The position numbers and the translations under genes were made by a program. 64,000 nucleotides of DNA, taken from the NCBI RefSeq assembly GCF_900099965.1, contig NZ_FNDJ01000001.1, forward strand, positions 419,766 to 483,765, written 5' to 3'. The notes beneath the pieces were generated by a model. It searched no databases. It saw nothing but the letters and a program-made list of their open reading frames with translations, and was not told the origin of the DNA. The stretch is from Nonomuraea jiangxiensis. Its GTDB lineage: Bacteria > Actinomycetota > Actinomycetes > Streptosporangiales > Streptosporangiaceae. This document shows, one piece after another, positions 2,274 through 19,336 of this stretch (its first letter is position 1; each line of letters begins with the position of its first letter).

Positions 2274-5200
2274 TCAGCCGCCGGCGCGGCGGCTCTCCGG
2301 CGGGCCCAGGTAGCTGGGCAGCAGGCCGCCGGTGTCCAGCACGATGCGCTGGAGCACCACGGTCGGGTCGACCATCCAGAACTTCACCGTGTGCACGCCC
2401 GGGGTCGTGATCGGGTGGGTGGTCGTGGTGACGGTGACGTTCTCGGAGGTGTTGCGCTCCCACTGGCGGTTCATGGTGGTGTCGTTCGCGCCGGTGACGG
2501 CCGTGACGTTCACCCGCTGGGGCGGCTGGTCGTCGATGGAGACGGCGTAGGTGAGCCCGTCGGTGGGCAGCACGTTGTTCCTGGGCGACAGGTGCACCGA
2601 CACCTTCACCTGGCCGGTCGTGTAGAGCGTCGTGGTGTACTCCAGGCGCGGGCTGCCGCCGCCCGGCGTGCGGCGGGCGGCCGTCACCGGCAGCGGCGTC
2701 ACGCCGTCGGAGGTCCTGCCGAGGTCGGGGATCGTCCGCCACGAGCCGACGGCCCTGCTGTGGTGCCCGGCCTCGATCGCGACGTGGCCGCCCGCCTCGA
2801 CGTACCCCTGGGGCCGCCCGGCGGGGTTGTCGACCACGGCCTTGACGGTCACCTGCCGCCCGCCGGGGCCCGTGACGGTGATGGGGACCTCGGTCCTGCC
2901 CTGGGGAGCGCGCGCCCAGTCCACCCGTACGGTCGCGCGCACCTGGTCGGTGACCCGGCCGGACCTCGGGGTGACGGTCAGCCAGGGCCGGGCGGTGGCC
3001 ATGGCGTAGTCGAACGGGGTGGCGCCGCGGTTGAACACCTCGATGTACTGCTGCGGGTAGCCCTGGTACGGGCTGAACGCGGGCAGCACCGCCGGACCCG
3101 TCGCCGCCGGCCACCACTGGTCGGAGCCGTCCACGGCGACTCCCATGTCGGCCCCCGCCGGCACCTCGGTACGGACGAGATGGGGATAGAACGCGTCCGG
3201 CAGCGCCACGTTGTCCTTCTCCGGCTGCTGCCAGGGGGCGTTCGGGCCGTACCGCTCGACGTCGCCGTACCCGATCTTGGGCTGGAGCTGGAAGTCGCGC
3301 CACTTGCCACCGCTGATCTCGCCGTAGCGGGCGTTGAGCGCCTGGTCCTCCGCGAACCGGGCCTCGGCGAGGTCGGCCTGGGCGTTGGCGGCGGCGCGGC
3401 CCTGCCGGGCGTAGAGGAGGTTGGTGAACTGGGCGCGGCGCAGCTCGTAGAGGTTGGCGGTGGCCCGCACCTGATAGCCGACGAGCTGGTAGTAGGCGTC
3501 GTGGTAGCGCTCGTCCAGGCGGCCGCGGATCTGCTCCGCCCGGCCCGCCAGCTGCCGCCACTCCGCCACCACCCGGTCCATCTCGCGGTAGCTGGTCAGG
3601 CTGAAGGGGGTCTCCCGGTCGTCGTAGGTCACGTTCTGCGGGTTCGCGGGGTCGGTGGTGATGCGGCGGTTCAGCAGCTCGGGCTTGCGGCGGGCCTGGA
3701 GCCGGCCGTACTCGTGGAGCACCTCGGCGATCCCGGTGGCCTGCTCGGGGCCGAAGTTCTGCGCCGCGTACGCGCGCTCCCAGTCGTCCAGCCTCTCGAT
3801 CGGCAGCCGGTCGGGGTCCCAGGCGTAGTCGAGGAAGAACTGCAGCGGCAGCTCCTCGTTCTTCATGTCGCCCACGTTGACCACCCAGAGCCGGTCCACG
3901 CCGTAGCGGTAGGTGAGGTCGAGCTGCTCCCACGTGCTGGCCAGATTGATCGTGTCGGCCCACTTGTAGTTGCGGCCGCCGCCGACGTAGTCGAAGTGGT
4001 AGTACATGCCGTAGCCGCCCTGCCGCGGCGGAAGCGCCTGGTCGGGCAGTTTGCGCATGTTGCCCCAGTTGTCGTCGCAGAAGACCACGGTCACGTCGTC
4101 CGGCGGGCGCAGGCCCTGGTCCCAGTAGCGCTGCACCTCCTTGTAGAGGGTCTGCACCTGCGGGATGCTCTCCAGGTCCTCGCCGCTCTCCTCGGCCAGG
4201 ATCTCGCGCTGCGCGGCCAGGATTGACTGCATCAACTCGATGCCGTCGCCGTCGGGCAGGCTCACGTCTCCGTTGCCGCGCATGCCGAGCGTCACGACGC
4301 CCTCGAAGCCCTGCTCGCGCATCCTGCGGATGCCGTCGGCCCAGTACTTCTTGATGGCCTCGCCGTTGCGGCGGAAGCTCCACTCGCCGGTCCCGCCGTA
4401 CGGGTCGCGGCCCGGGGTGACGATGTCGCCCGCGCTGTCGCGTACGGCGGCCACGGCGTGCCGGTTCCACTCCTCGATGCCGCGCATCATGGGAGCCTCG
4501 TGTGAGGTGCCGATGACGACGCCGTACTGGCTCGCCACCCGGTGGTTGTCCGGGTCGTCCTCGGCGAAGGCCCGGCCCCAGACCGCCGGCCACAGGTAGT
4601 TGGCCTTGAGCCGGAGCATCACCTCGAACACCCTGGCGTACATCTTGCTGTTGAAGCCGCCCGGGTAGCCCTCGGCCAGGCCGGGGCCGAAATAGCGGGG
4701 CGCCCAGGTGCCGAGGTTGGGGTTCTCGTCGTTGATGAAGAACCCCCGGTATTTCACCTTGGGCGTGCCCTGGGTGTGCCGGCCGGGCAGCACGTGAAGC
4801 GCGTCCTGGTGGCGGGTGGGCACGTCGTCCCACCAGTACCAGGGTGAGACGCCGATCTCCTTGGAGACGTCGTACGCGCCGAAGATCGTGCCCCGCTGGT
4901 CGCTGCCCGCGATCACGAACGCGCGCCGAACGCCGGGCACCGGGTTCTGCACCACTTGCTCCAGCGAGGTCTCCCACTTGCCCGCGATGCCCGAGACGTC
5001 GAGCTTGCCGGCCTTGATCAGGCCGTCGATGAGCGGGCTCCTGCCGATGGTCCCGACGAGCACCACCTCGTCCCGGCGCGGGACCCGGTCCCTGACCAGG
5101 TCGGGCCGTACGCCGGTGACCCGCTCCAGGTCGGCCTGGAGATCGCCGGCCACGCGGACGACGCCGGCGTGGTCGCTGCCGCTGACCACGATCGGCGCCG

Positions 5201-16310: not shown

Positions 16311-16363
16311 GGCGCTGGCTCCGTAGATCGGCTGTGCTACGGGACGAGCTTAGCGGCCGGCAA

Positions 16364-16399
16364 GTTATCCGGGATAACCTACCAAAAGTATGGGATAAT
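16364..16399. promoter_or_regulatory. 15-bp perfect palindrome and -10 box before the LanC-like gene
   Basis: GTTATCCGGGATAAC (16364-16378) is a perfect palindrome around a single G. The half-site GGGATAA recurs 15 nt further on inside TATGGGATAATAG. There GATAAT (16394-16399) is a good -10 element placed 6 nt before the GTG start at 16406, so transcription would begin at or near the start codon (leaderless mRNA). An operator overlapping the promoter core suggests repression of the LanC-like gene, and perhaps also of the divergent ABM gene. Confidence 0.55.
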
Positions 16400-16405
16400 A
16401 GCCTG

Positions 16406-17755
16406 GTGAGCCTGGACAGGATCCGCCCATTGAGCGCCCGCGCCGATTCTCCGCTGACCGCCGCCGTCCGGGCGGCACGCTGGATCAGATCCGCCGCGCT
16501 CGACGACGAGCTCGGCAGGCGCTGGCTGGCCAACCCCGATCCGCGTGGCGCTTCGGCGGTCACCCCCGAGCCCTGGTCCCTCTACTCCGGGTCGGCCGGC
16601 ATCGTGCTGTTCTTCCTGGAGCTGGCCGCCGCGACCGGCGAGGAGTCCTACCTGGAGGATGCCAGGGCCGGGGCCCGCAGGCTCGCCGCCACCTGGCGCG
16701 AGCAGGACGACCTCTCGCTCTACCACGGGCTGACCGGCACGATGCTGGCGCTCATGGAGGCGGGCTGGGCGCTCGGCGAGGGCGGCTTCGAGTCCGAGGC
16801 CGCGGCCATCGCCGACGAGATCGTGCGCCGCGGCGACCCGGCGCGCAGCCCGCACGACGGCGGCTGGCCGCGCGATCCCGCGCAGCGCGGCGAGGGCGGC
16901 ATCGTCCTGGGCCTGCTGCGGGCCGCCGCCCACCTCGGCCTGCCCGGCTACGAGGCCGCGGCGGTCGAGGCTGGCCTGCGCATCGCCCGGCTGCCGGTGC
17001 CGGGCCACCGCTTCGGCGACTGCGCCGACCTGCCGGTGGACGCCGTCACGCCGGGCTTCCTGGCGGGCACGGCGGGCACGGCGTTCCTGCTCGCCCGCCT
17101 GTACGGGGTGACGGGCGACGAGCGGTTCCTGTTCGCAGCCCGCAGCGGCGCCGCCTTCGTCCGCGAGGTAAGCGTCGTGACCGAGGGCTGCGCGGTCGTC
17201 CCGCACCACGTGCCGCACGCCCGGAGCCTGCACTACCTGGGCTTCTGCTCCGGCTCAGCGGGCGTGGCCCGGATGTTCTACGAGCTCTACCGGGTCACCG
17301 GCGACCCCGGCGACCTGGAGTGGGTGGAGCGGCTGGCCCGGGGCATCGTGCGCAGCGGCGTGCCGAACCGGCGTACCGAGGGCTACTGGAACGTGGCCTG
17401 CCAGTGTTGCGGCGCGGCCGGGCTGATCGAGCTGTTCGTCGGCCTGTGGGCGGCGACCGGGCAGGAGTCGCACCTCGAATGCGCCCGCACGCTCGCCGCC
17501 GACCTGCTCGGCCGGGCCACCGACCACGACGGCCGCGGCTACCGCTGGTACCAGGCCTACCGCCGGCTGCGGCCCGGCGAGGTGACGGCCGACACCGGTT
17601 ACATGGTGGGCGCGGCGGGCATCGGCGCCGCGCTGCTCCACCTGGACGCCGCCGGGCGGGCCGACCGGGCGCGCCGGGTCATCCTGCTGCCCGACAACCC
17701 GTTCCCGGCCATCCCGGTGCCCCGGTCGGTCCTGGGTGGCGGCGTCTCCGAATAG
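16406..17755 (+). CDS. Orphan LanC-like protein (lanthionine synthetase C family)
   Basis: A 449-residue protein starting at GTG 16406 (SLDRIRPLSARAD); upstream codons overlap the promoter palindrome, so the longer frame is rejected. The fold is the repeated alpha/alpha toroid of LanC: SLYSGSAGIVLFFLEL, LYHGLTGTMLALMEAG, GFLAGTAGTAFLLARLYGV, LHYLGFCSGSAGVARMFYELY, NVACQCCGAAGLIELFVGLW and DTGYMVGAAGIGAALLHLD. The cysteines in FCSG and CQCCG occupy the positions of the LanC zinc ligands (normally C...CH), so zinc binding is plausible though the usual CHG is CCG. LanC enzymes cyclise dehydrated peptides to lanthionines; no LanB/LanM dehydratase or precursor is nearby, so it may act in trans or have another thiol-addition role. 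Confidence 0.85.
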   Translation: MSLDRIRPLSARADSPLTAAVRAARWIRSAALDDELGRRWLANPDPRGASAVTPEPWSLYSGSAGIVLFFLELAAATGEESYLEDARAGARRLAATWREQDDLSLYHGLTGTMLALMEAGWALGEGGFESEAAAIADEIVRRGDPARSPHDGGWPRDPAQRGEGGIVLGLLRAAAHLGLPGYEAAAVEAGLRIARLPVPGHRFGDCADLPVDAVTPGFLAGTAGTAFLLARLYGVTGDERFLFAARSGAAFVREVSVVTEGCAVVPHHVPHARSLHYLGFCSGSAGVARMFYELYRVTGDPGDLEWVERLARGIVRSGVPNRRTEGYWNVACQCCGAAGLIELFVGLWAATGQESHLECARTLAADLLGRATDHDGRGYRWYQAYRRLRPGEVTADTGYMVGAAGIGAALLHLDAAGRADRARRVILLPDNPFPAIPVPRSVLGGGVSE

Positions 17756-17782
17756 AAATCCATGCATAGCTAGTAGGAAAAG

Positions 17783-17811
17783 TTGACTTTATGGGCGTGT
17801 CCTCGTAGCTT
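17783..17811 (+). promoter_or_regulatory. Housekeeping-type promoter for the sulfur leader peptide and operon
   Basis: TTGACT (17783-17788), a 17-nt spacer, and TAGCTT (17806-17811) form a good actinobacterial sigma-70 promoter. The expected start of transcription is about 7 nt downstream, at the ATG of the leader peptide (17819), implying a leaderless transcript. Confidence 0.6.
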
Positions 17812-17818
17812 CGAGGGC

Positions 17819-17893
17819 ATGAGCCTGGGCTTCCACCTCACCCGGCGCCCGCACGTGGACCACGGCCACGTCGCCAGCGCGCAGTGTCGCTGA
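17819..17893 (+). CDS. 24-aa cysteine-containing leader peptide upstream of sulfur operon
   Basis: ATG 17819 to TGA 17893. The peptide starts MSLGF, carries the core LTRRPHVDHGHVASA and ends QCR. The pattern RRxHVD...SAxCR is the hallmark of short leader peptides found before sulfur-assimilation genes in many actinobacteria, where a Cys codon next to the end is thought to sense cysteine supply. The promoter position predicts a leaderless mRNA. Within the leader, CACGTGGAC (17852-17860) is perfectly complementary to GTCCACGTG (17993-18001), immediately at the Shine-Dalgarno GGAGG of the next gene, so leader translation could control operon translation. Confidence 0.82.
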   Translation: MSLGFHLTRRPHVDHGHVASAQCR

Positions 17894-18010
17894 TCACGGA
17901 CCGGACACCAGACCTCTCCACCCTCCAGAGGAACCCATCGTGATCAAAATCAGACATGCCCACCTGCTCCTGGCCGGCGTCGAACGCCGCTTGTCCACGT
18001 GGAGGACCCC

Positions 18011-19336
18011 ATGACGAGAAAGCTCCACCTGAACGCCTTCCTCATGGGCGTCGGCCACCACGAGGCGGCCTGGCGGCACCCGGGTGCCGAGCCCGCCCGC
18101 CTCACCGACGTCCGTCACTACCAGGAGCTGGCCAGGATCGCCGAACGCGGCAAGCTCGACTCGGTCTTCCTCGCCGACGGCCTGGCCCTGGGCAGCGTGC
18201 GGCACAACGCGCTCGGCCGCCTCGAACCCCTCACGCTCCTGTCGGCCCTGGCCGCCGTCACCGACCACGTGGGCCTGATCGCCACCGTGTCCACGACGTA
18301 CAACGAGCCCTTCCACGTGGCTCGCAAGTTCGCCTCCCTCGACCACATCAGCGGCGGCCGGGCCGGCTGGAACATCGTCACCTCCGCGGGCGCGGCCGAG
18401 GCCCGCAACTTCGGCATCGAACGCCCCGAGCACGCCCGCCGCTACGCCAGGGCCGGGGAGTTCCTGGAGGTCGTACGCAAGCTGTGGGACAGCTGGGAGG
18501 ACGACGCGATCCTGGGCGACCGCGCCGGCGGCCTGTACGCCGACACGGACAAGATCCACCCGATCGACCACGAGGGCGAGCACTTCGCGGTCAGCGGCCC
18601 GCTGAACACCTCCCGCCCGCCCCAGGGCCACCCGCTGCTGGTGCAGGCCGGGTCGTCGGAGGACGGCAAGGAGTTCGCCGCCCGGAACGCCGACGCCGTC
18701 TTCACCGCCCAGCAGACGCTCAGGGAGGCGCAGGAGTTCTACGCCGACCTGAAGCGCCGCGTCGCCGCGCACGGCAGGGACCCGGACGAGCTGCTCGTCC
18801 TGCCGGGCATCTCGCCGATCATCGGCTCGACCGAGCGCGCGGCGCTGCGGCTGGAGAAGGAGCTGGAGGACCTGATCATCCCCGCGTACGGGCTGGCGCA
18901 GCTCTCCCATATGACCGGTATCGAGCTGACCGCCGACGCGCTGGACGAGCAACTGCCCGACGTGCCGGTCGAGACCGAGGGGGCGCAGAGCCGTCGCAAG
19001 CTCGTGGTGGACCTGGCCCGGCGCGAGCACCTCACGGTCAGGCAGCTCCTGAACCGGCTGGCGGGCGGGCGCGGCCACCGCGTCGTGGCCGGCACGCCGG
19101 AGCAGATCGCCGACCAGCTCCAGGAGTGGTTCTTCAGCGGGGCCGCCGACGGCTTCAACATCATGCCACCGATCCTGCCCGGCGGGCTGGCCGACTTCGT
19201 CGATCACGTCGTGCCGGAGCTGCAGGCCAGGGGGCTGTTCAGGAACGAGTACGAAGGCCGGACCCTGCGGGAGAACTACGGCCTGCCCAGACCGCTATCC
19301 CGGTACGCCGCGGGTGCGGTGGCGGTGGCCCGATGA
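18011..19336 (+). CDS. LLM-class flavin-dependent monooxygenase (NtaA/SnaA/DszA family)
   Basis: A 441-residue TIM-barrel FMNH2-dependent monooxygenase. ATG 18011 is chosen because GGAGG lies 5 nt upstream; the in-frame GTG at 17999 lies before that site. Family blocks: LHLNAFLMGVGHHEAAWRHP, ELARIAERGKLDSVFLADG, LEPLTLLSALAAVT, TYNEPFHVARKFASLDHISGGRAGWNIVTS, HPLLVQAGSSEDGKEFAARNADAVFTAQ and the C-terminal VAGTPEQIADQLQEWFFSGAADGFNIM. Relatives oxidise nitrilotriacetate, dibenzothiophene sulfone or alkyl sulfur compounds with reduced FMN from a partner. The next gene encodes that reductase (4-nt overlap), and the cysteine leader suggests use of an organosulfur source. The exact substrate is unknown. 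Confidence 0.9.
   Translation: MTRKLHLNAFLMGVGHHEAAWRHPGAEPARLTDVRHYQELARIAERGKLDSVFLADGLALGSVRHNALGRLEPLTLLSALAAVTDHVGLIATVSTTYNEPFHVARKFASLDHISGGRAGWNIVTSAGAAEARNFGIERPEHARRYARAGEFLEVVRKLWDSWEDDAILGDRAGGLYADTDKIHPIDHEGEHFAVSGPLNTSRPPQGHPLLVQAGSSEDGKEFAARNADAVFTAQQTLREAQEFYADLKRRVAAHGRDPDELLVLPGISPIIGSTERAALRLEKELEDLIIPAYGLAQLSHMTGIELTADALDEQLPDVPVETEGAQSRRKLVVDLARREHLTVRQLLNRLAGGRGHRVVAGTPEQIADQLQEWFFSGAADGFNIMPPILPGGLADFVDHVVPELQARGLFRNEYEGRTLRENYGLPRPLSRYAAGAVAVAR

Follow-up and report, generated by a model that had tools for sequence, protein, structure and literature searches.

A candidate leaderless cysteine attenuator, rewired by deletion, ahead of a monooxygenase gene in Nonomuraea jiangxiensis

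The monooxygenase locus and its leader

The window, a stretch of 64,000 nucleotides from the 11.8-Mb genome of Nonomuraea jiangxiensis, carries a gene for an FMN-dependent monooxygenase of the NtaA/DmoA family, the stop of which is overlapped by the start of an SsuE-like FMN reductase gene (19333 versus 19336), and, upstream of both, a short leader frame with a promoter of its own (Table 1). The promoter hexamers, the ATG and the 24-codon frame that an earlier note on this DNA had described are all present at the positions given there. The closest named relative of the monooxygenase is found in Nonomuraea basaltis (90% identity), as judged from a contig search from which the genome containing the window may have been left out. 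The leader has sulfur-metabolism genes downstream, namely those for the NtaA/DmoA monooxygenase and the SsuE-like reductase and, in relatives, for an SsuA-like binding protein (SBP), the assignments of the binding protein and the reductase being based on scores under the cut-offs of the respective models. Searching positions 17401-18600 against Rfam gave no match at E values up to 1. Just 5' of the leader, at 16334-17752, lies a gene for a LanC-like protein, and DNA similar to this gene region occurs at other places in the same genome (C21, C36).

Table 1. Positions of the leader, its proposed RNA elements and the genes that follow, numbered within the window
Feature	Start	End	Strand	Remarks
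Conserved AGTAGGAAA element adjoining the -35 box	17772	17780	+	GTAGG conserved at 70-91% per base in 74 leaders, GTAGG itself being among the criteria used in collecting leaders
Promoter, TTGACT, 17-nt spacer, TAGCTT	17783	17811	+	TTGACT at 17783, TAGCTT at 17806
Leader peptide MSLGFHLTRRPHVDHGHVASAQCR*	17819	17893	+	Start ATG 17819; 24 codons
Leader-internal hairpin ACGUGG (17853-17858) / CCACGU (17866-17871)	17853	17871	+	In the RNAalifold consensus
Proposed sensor codon UGU (Cys23)	17885	17887	+	UGU in 66 of 66 distinct gapless leaders
5' arm UGAUCACG over the leader stop codon	17891	17898	+	Exact reverse complement of the 3' arm
Inner hairpin CCUCU (17913-17917) / AGAGG (17927-17931)	17913	17931	+	Holds the Shine-Dalgarno sequence of GTG 17940
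3' arm CGUGAUCA over the GUG start	17939	17946	+	Exact reverse complement of the 5' arm
Relay ORF VIKIRHAHLLLAGVERRLSTWRTP*	17940	18014	+	GTG 17940 to TGA 18014; 24 codons
Approximate scar of a ~2.6-kb deletion (SBP, ATPase, permease)	17961	17962	+	Query splits near here in congeners
3' segment GTCCACGTG of the earlier note	17993	18001	+	Permease codons inside the relay ORF
NtaA/DmoA-family FMN-dependent monooxygenase	18011	19336	+	TIGR03860, 595.9 bits, cut-off 279.7
SsuE-like FMN reductase	19333	19845	+	TIGR03567, E 1e-27, 97.1 bits; under the cut-off of 164.05

The comparisons reported here use a set of 85 distinct leaders that have GTAGG and a -35-like motif upstream; these leaders share ancestry, so that counts across them are not independent. 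Promoter elements were scored in 84 leaders, and TANNNT was found in 78 of them. The spacer between the -35 and -10 boxes is 17 nt long in 72 of these 78 and 18 nt long in six, and between the -10 element and the ATG lie 7 nt in 60 leaders, 6 nt in 17 and 19 nt in one. Judged by this promoter geometry, a leaderless start would be expected in 77 of these 78 leaders, and the conserved distance to the ATG predicts a leaderless transcription start at ATG 17819; the leader in the window is probably leaderless. Moreover, a profile built from 18 leaders finds a match at E <= 0.001 in 100 of the 120 genomes sampled from the family, representing 62 of 68 genera, which implies that the leader is more than a chance occurrence. 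Many of the weaker matches may represent related R-x-HVD leaders of another subtype. Searches with DNA of this region show that the window's own genome contains further copies of the leader.

The leader in the window contains one cysteine codon and no run of consecutive cysteine codons; over the last 23 residues, 57 of the 85 leaders have a single cysteine and 28 have two to four. Among the 75 leaders with a penultimate cysteine, this residue is encoded by UGU in 74 and by TGC in one. TGT makes up 2 of 24 cysteine codons in five genes of the window, 1 of 25 in the SBP and monooxygenase genes of relatives, and 13 of 40 among the remaining cysteine codons within leaders, the last figure being drawn from all 85 leaders, including longer ones that hold the sensor codon at one of these other positions. 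Third codon positions in the leader (conservation 0.86) are about as conserved as first and second positions (0.87 and 0.90), and the constraint therefore seems to act on the nucleic acid as well as on the peptide. In addition, of the 66 distinct gapless leaders, 64-66 form each of the six pairs of the leader-internal hairpin.

Predicted pairing between the leader stop and the next start

The two arms listed in Table 1 are predicted to form a helix that ties the stop codon of the leader to the GUG start of the next frame. With L127 and L128 added to the 85 leaders, giving 87 for both arm-pairing counts that follow, a first start chosen blind to pairing was found in 80, and at least seven of the eight positions pair in 50 of these 80 and all eight in 35; the automatic choice of start is wrong or late at several loci, for example L079, L088, L098, L115 and L121. 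Sliding the arms by 1-6 nt in either direction left none of the 80 leaders with at least seven of eight positions paired. When GTGAT starts are preferred, a rule that favours pairing by construction, 51 of 52 leaders pair at seven or more of the eight positions and 41 pair at all eight. An arm of the form TGATC[AG][CT]G and a GTGAT start occur together in 46 leaders, the arm alone in 13, the start alone in six and neither in 22, and the p-value of this association is no more than a guide, the leaders being related. The distance from leader stop to paired start extends from 44 nt (L062, L104) up to 296 nt (L112), with differing genes downstream. Several long-interval leaders (L008, L053, L054, L067, L069 and L077) have a GC-rich hairpin-like motif, approximately GCGTGGCCGACGNCGYCCACGY, between leader and gene.

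Covariation was assessed in an alignment of 45 of the 46 distinct arm pairs, the L072 pair, which pairs less well, having been left out. Wobble variants that keep the helix are A-U to G-U (six), C-G to U-G (two), U-A to U-G (six) and G-C to G-U (two). Pairs 2, 3 and 5 are invariant in these 45 rows, the ninth pair is informative (AU in 12, GC in 12, GU in seven, unpaired in 14), and pairs 10, 11 and 12 fail to form in 28, 39 and 38 rows, respectively. The covariation score and the percentage paired were equalled by none of 500 shuffles and the double-changed cells by five of 500. Two further measures are no better than chance, the number of pairs with a double change being matched by 160 of 500 shuffles and the number of further pair types by 172 of 500.

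The 85 leaders fall into those followed by a direct long ORF (27), those followed by a relay ORF (21), those with no GTGAT-type start (17), those with a helix of less than 7 bp (12) and others (eight, including L035, L074 and L117, for which the GTG picked lies inside a gene). Going by the last three classes, a considerable share of the leaders either operates in another way or has been misread. Leaders of the window's family that end in QCRRRD and similar residues are without the stop/start helix.

Since TGATCA is palindromic and occurs twice, at the leader stop and at the gene start, the two copies might be DNA-level sites that bind a regulator, the leader peptide being incidental, and the conserved AGTAGGAAA before the -35 box, which may itself be a site for a regulator or another protein, would suit such a reading. 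The variants TGATCGCG and TGATCATG, however, break the palindrome and keep the RNA pairing by means of G.U, the copies in the paired cases coincide with the leader stop and with a GTG start, 44 to 296 nt apart, and the presence of UGU in 66 of 66 leaders would be left unexplained. We therefore regard a DNA-level site as improbable. Transcription attenuation, with the stop/start helix or a later hairpin acting as, or competing with, a terminator, is also unlikely in our view, even though it is classic for amino-acid leaders and some leaders of Streptomyces lividans have terminator-like hairpins and U stretches, according to passages of one report (PMC8079986). The 3' arm lies exactly on the start codon, and no U run follows the helix in the window, where the sequence from 17947 onward is AAATCAGAC.

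The stop/start helix and the inner Shine-Dalgarno hairpin are together predicted to form an RNA structure that hides the downstream ribosome site. The inner hairpin appears in the minimum-energy fold of 17891-17950 (-14.8 kcal/mol), and sequences resembling it are found in several short-interval operons. Blocking 17860-17898 in the fold removes the stop/start helix by construction because its 5' arm lies inside the block. Under these conditions, the GUG is only partly freed (unpaired 0.00 before and 0.23 after blocking) and the Shine-Dalgarno sequence is not freed (0.22 in free RNA and 0.21 when blocked), since the inner hairpin remains in place along with other structures. This weak opening weakens a simple on/off picture and has lowered our confidence in the attenuator.

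Deletion and relay ORFs

In Nonomuraea basaltis (L127), 2,761 nt separate the leader stop from the monooxygenase ATG, compared to 120 nt in the window. A search with the region matched 39 of 59 genomes, and in many congeners the query splits near 17961/17962. When 20 congener regions were inspected, the leader was located about 2.8 kb before the monooxygenase in 13 and close to it, as in the window, in one (G035, identical with L059); the other six gave no leader in the first search, and a looser search then found the L058 and L062 leaders. The intervening genes, as read in L046, encode an SsuA-like binding protein, an ATPase and a permease, all scoring under the curated cut-offs. Residues 1-9 of the relay ORF in the window match the start of the binding protein and residues 8-23 match the end of the permease, in one frame, and the stop of the relay ORF overlaps the monooxygenase ATG in the ATGA at 18011-18014. 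G035 contains a different in-frame fusion, of 17 codons. Because a tree with the window and G035 monooxygenases as a sister pair is not rejected (AU p 0.46), the tree does not show independence, and only the differing breakpoints speak for two events, which would be either two deletions or one deletion followed by a second in-frame loss. The leader anatomy, the deletion, the conservation of the helix, the usage of UGU and the stop/start overlaps can thus be read from the compared sequences themselves.

Two relatives have monooxygenase genes without a separate leader. In Spongiactinospora sp. TRM90649 (L131, about 4400-4512), a promoter of this kind leads directly into the monooxygenase, and the enzyme begins with the first residues of the leader (MSQG, then KLHL); the leader seems to have been fused to the monooxygenase, and the enzyme itself would be leaderless. 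In Nonomuraea candida (L129, about 4390-4501; also L063), the promoter is joined to the monooxygenase and the leader is gone, only a stretch resembling the permease tail remaining between the two.

The window copy might be a decaying remnant, its leader and relay ORF having been non-functional since the transporter was lost and the enzyme not being usefully expressed. The loss or fusion of the leader in N. candida and Spongiactinospora is in line with decay, as is the lack of any close relative of the binding protein elsewhere in the genome, where the best match by E-value has 27% identity. Against this, the promoter, leader, UGU codon, both arms, inner hairpin, relay frame and ATGA are all intact in the window, and we consider a remnant quite unlikely.

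Relay ORFs are present in 21 of the 85 leaders, the paired GTG opening an ORF of 8-84 codons that ends in an overlap between its own stop and the following gene's start. A monooxygenase follows the relay in the window and in G035; the genes downstream of other relays appear to encode flavin-reductase-like and permease-like proteins, an FMN reductase and a FAD-dependent-looking enzyme, assignments made by sequence reading, library scans having covered the monooxygenase and FMN reductase of the window. The flavin-reductase set comprises 29 leaders with the motif downstream, three of which (L070, L074 and L107) have no scorable GTG. Among the remaining 26, the GTG opens a relay of 16-84 codons ending on an overlap in 17; it is in the frame of the gene in eight, these in-frame cases including L008 and L117, for which the gene's own GTG was taken, and the ambiguous L094, and in the third frame in one (L037), the relay of which leads to another gene. 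The 84-codon relay of L036 consists of the start of an SBP fused in frame to the end of an FMN reductase, and that of L104, with 27 codons, holds permease N-terminal sequence. The make-up of these two indicates that relays arose by deletion more than once.

The deletion also bears on the pairing that the earlier note had put forward as the switch, in which the leader segment CACGTGGAC (17852-17860) pairs with GTCCACGTG (17993-18001) beside the Shine-Dalgarno sequence of the monooxygenase and the ribosome on the leader controls this pairing directly. The 9-nt complementarity is indeed exact, most of its 5' segment lying within the 5' arm of the leader-internal hairpin, and the 9-bp helix is predicted in the free window RNA with a mean pair probability of 0.99, so that it might stabilise the RNA locally in this one genome, though conservation gives it no backing. 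The 3' segment, however, is permease coding sequence, and the position of GTCCACGTG in aligned relatives reads CTCCACCTG or similar. Both segments were located in 16 of the 24 relatives examined, at 2.7-3.0 kb from each other, and seven of the nine positions pair in 15 of the 16, eight in one (Planotetraspora L130) and nine in none. Even in G035, where the segments are close, CTCCACCTG pairs with the same leader segment at only seven of nine positions. Compensatory change, for which the earlier note proposed to look, is seen once, as a double change in L057 (CACGTCGAC with TTCGACCTG); at the same position, Planobispora L128 is altered on one side only. Matches of at least 9 nt were obtained in 22 of 1000 shuffles of the leader coding sequence against the 54 nt before the gene and in 7 of 300 when the target was widened to 17894-18030, and the observed match, having been picked post hoc, is weak by itself. 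The 9-bp pairing was rejected as the main switch after this test in relatives; it is very probably not the switch, and direct control of this pairing by the leader ribosome is highly improbable. We take the 9-nt complementarity to have arisen as a side effect of the deletion; it may stabilise the fold, though in no genome but this one.

Proposed mechanism and relation to known leaders

With moderate confidence, we propose that the locus carries a leaderless cysteine-responsive translational attenuator that was rewired by deletion. The leaderless start, the stalling, the direction of the response, the translation of the relay ORF and its coupling are what we infer. Transcription would start at ATG 17819, so that translation of the leader would proceed with no ribosome-binding site. 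A shortage of cysteinyl-tRNA would make ribosomes wait at the UGU codon (17885), the first base of which lies 6 nt 5' of the 5' arm of the stop/start helix; given the size of the ribosome footprint and this short distance, a ribosome stalled at UGU should cover the arm. With its leading edge over UGAUCACG (17891-17898), CGUGAUCA (17939-17946) and the GUG would be free, and the next ORF would be translated. When cysteine is plentiful, ribosomes would terminate and leave, the stop/start helix would close, and translation would be turned off. In relatives, the ORF under control would be that of the SBP, within a sulfonate-type transporter operon. The loss of about 2.6 kb from the window has left the beginning of the SBP gene joined, in a single frame, to the tail of the permease gene. 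The resulting relay ORF of 24 codons would deliver ribosomes to the ATGA at which it overlaps the monooxygenase gene. A shortage of cysteine would open the start and increase the scavenging of sulfur, in keeping with the enzymes under control.

Translational attenuation by the leader, as the earlier note had envisaged it, thus survives as regards a probably leaderless cysteine leader before sulfur genes and the likely use of base pairing that a stalled ribosome would block, and fails as regards the segments named. The doubt expressed there, that the cysteine codon lies too far from the pairing, is removed by the stop/start helix, whose arm is 6 nt from this codon.

Polycysteine leaderless short ORFs of mycobacteria are reportedly the subject of Canestrari et al. 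2020, Mol Microbiol 114:93. Cysteine-responsive leaderless attenuators of mycobacteria are known from passages of three reports (PMC9094748, PMC9031893, PMC13236596), and, to the extent that these passages describe them, the polycysteine ORFs resemble the leader studied here in having cysteine codons and cysteine-related genes downstream; they would also share with it a leaderless first ORF, predicted here from promoter spacing, and the proposed translational attenuation that depends on ribosome speed. Unlike the mycobacterial ORFs, the present leaders have one proposed sensor cysteine codon, nearly always UGU, a helix that joins the leader stop to the next start, and relay ORFs that link other genes. 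The NCBIfam family NF042934 (cis_reg_atten), together with NF042936 (Ms4527A) and NF042933 (Ms5788A), shares the R-x-HVD motif and the C-terminal cysteine. The window leader scores 15.4 bits against NF042934 (E 0.011), under the cut-off of 27, and is therefore not filed under this family, for which the window's genome has five matches over the cut-off. For comparison, six other actinobacterial genomes gave 31 matches; 30 loci were considered, and 19 leaders were parsed, all from four Streptomyces genomes, two Mycolicibacterium loci being left out. Only one of the 15 NF042934-type Streptomyces leaders with a first start forms the helix at seven or more of the eight positions, unlike the window type. 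TGT is likewise common in the NF042934-type leaders (L212-L241) of the four Streptomyces genomes, at 20 of 31 cysteine codons.

Coupled small ORFs with an RTGA overlap, thought to deliver ribosomes, are described for mycobacteria in passages of Shell et al. 2015 (PMC4633059). As in the cases described there, the stop of a short ORF overlaps the start of the next gene in the window. The coupled ORF here differs in being a second small ORF with its start codon inside the attenuator helix, and some of the relays arose by deletion of operon genes. Within the open-licence literature searched, we found no report of a stop/start helix, a single-UGU leader or relay ORFs. The proposed cysteine attenuator is most likely of the known mycobacterial kind, from which the stop/start helix, the single UGU and the relay ORFs set it apart.

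Across the Streptosporangiaceae, we tentatively suggest, as a possibility somewhat short of probable, that these leaders constitute a portable cysteine switch, in which a leaderless leader with one invariant UGU is combined with a helix that locks its stop onto the next GUG and, where required, with a relay mini-gene. As the first gene's start codon would be built into such a switch, an operon deprived of its first genes would retain this codon at the head of a relay ORF, and deletion would thereby put other genes under cysteine control. If this is true, sensing an amino acid would take no more than a single rare codon, without a codon run, and switching would depend on a stop codon being tied to a start codon. 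This reading further points to a way in which operons may shed genes yet stay controlled, the first start, trapped in a regulatory RNA, surviving as a mini-gene.
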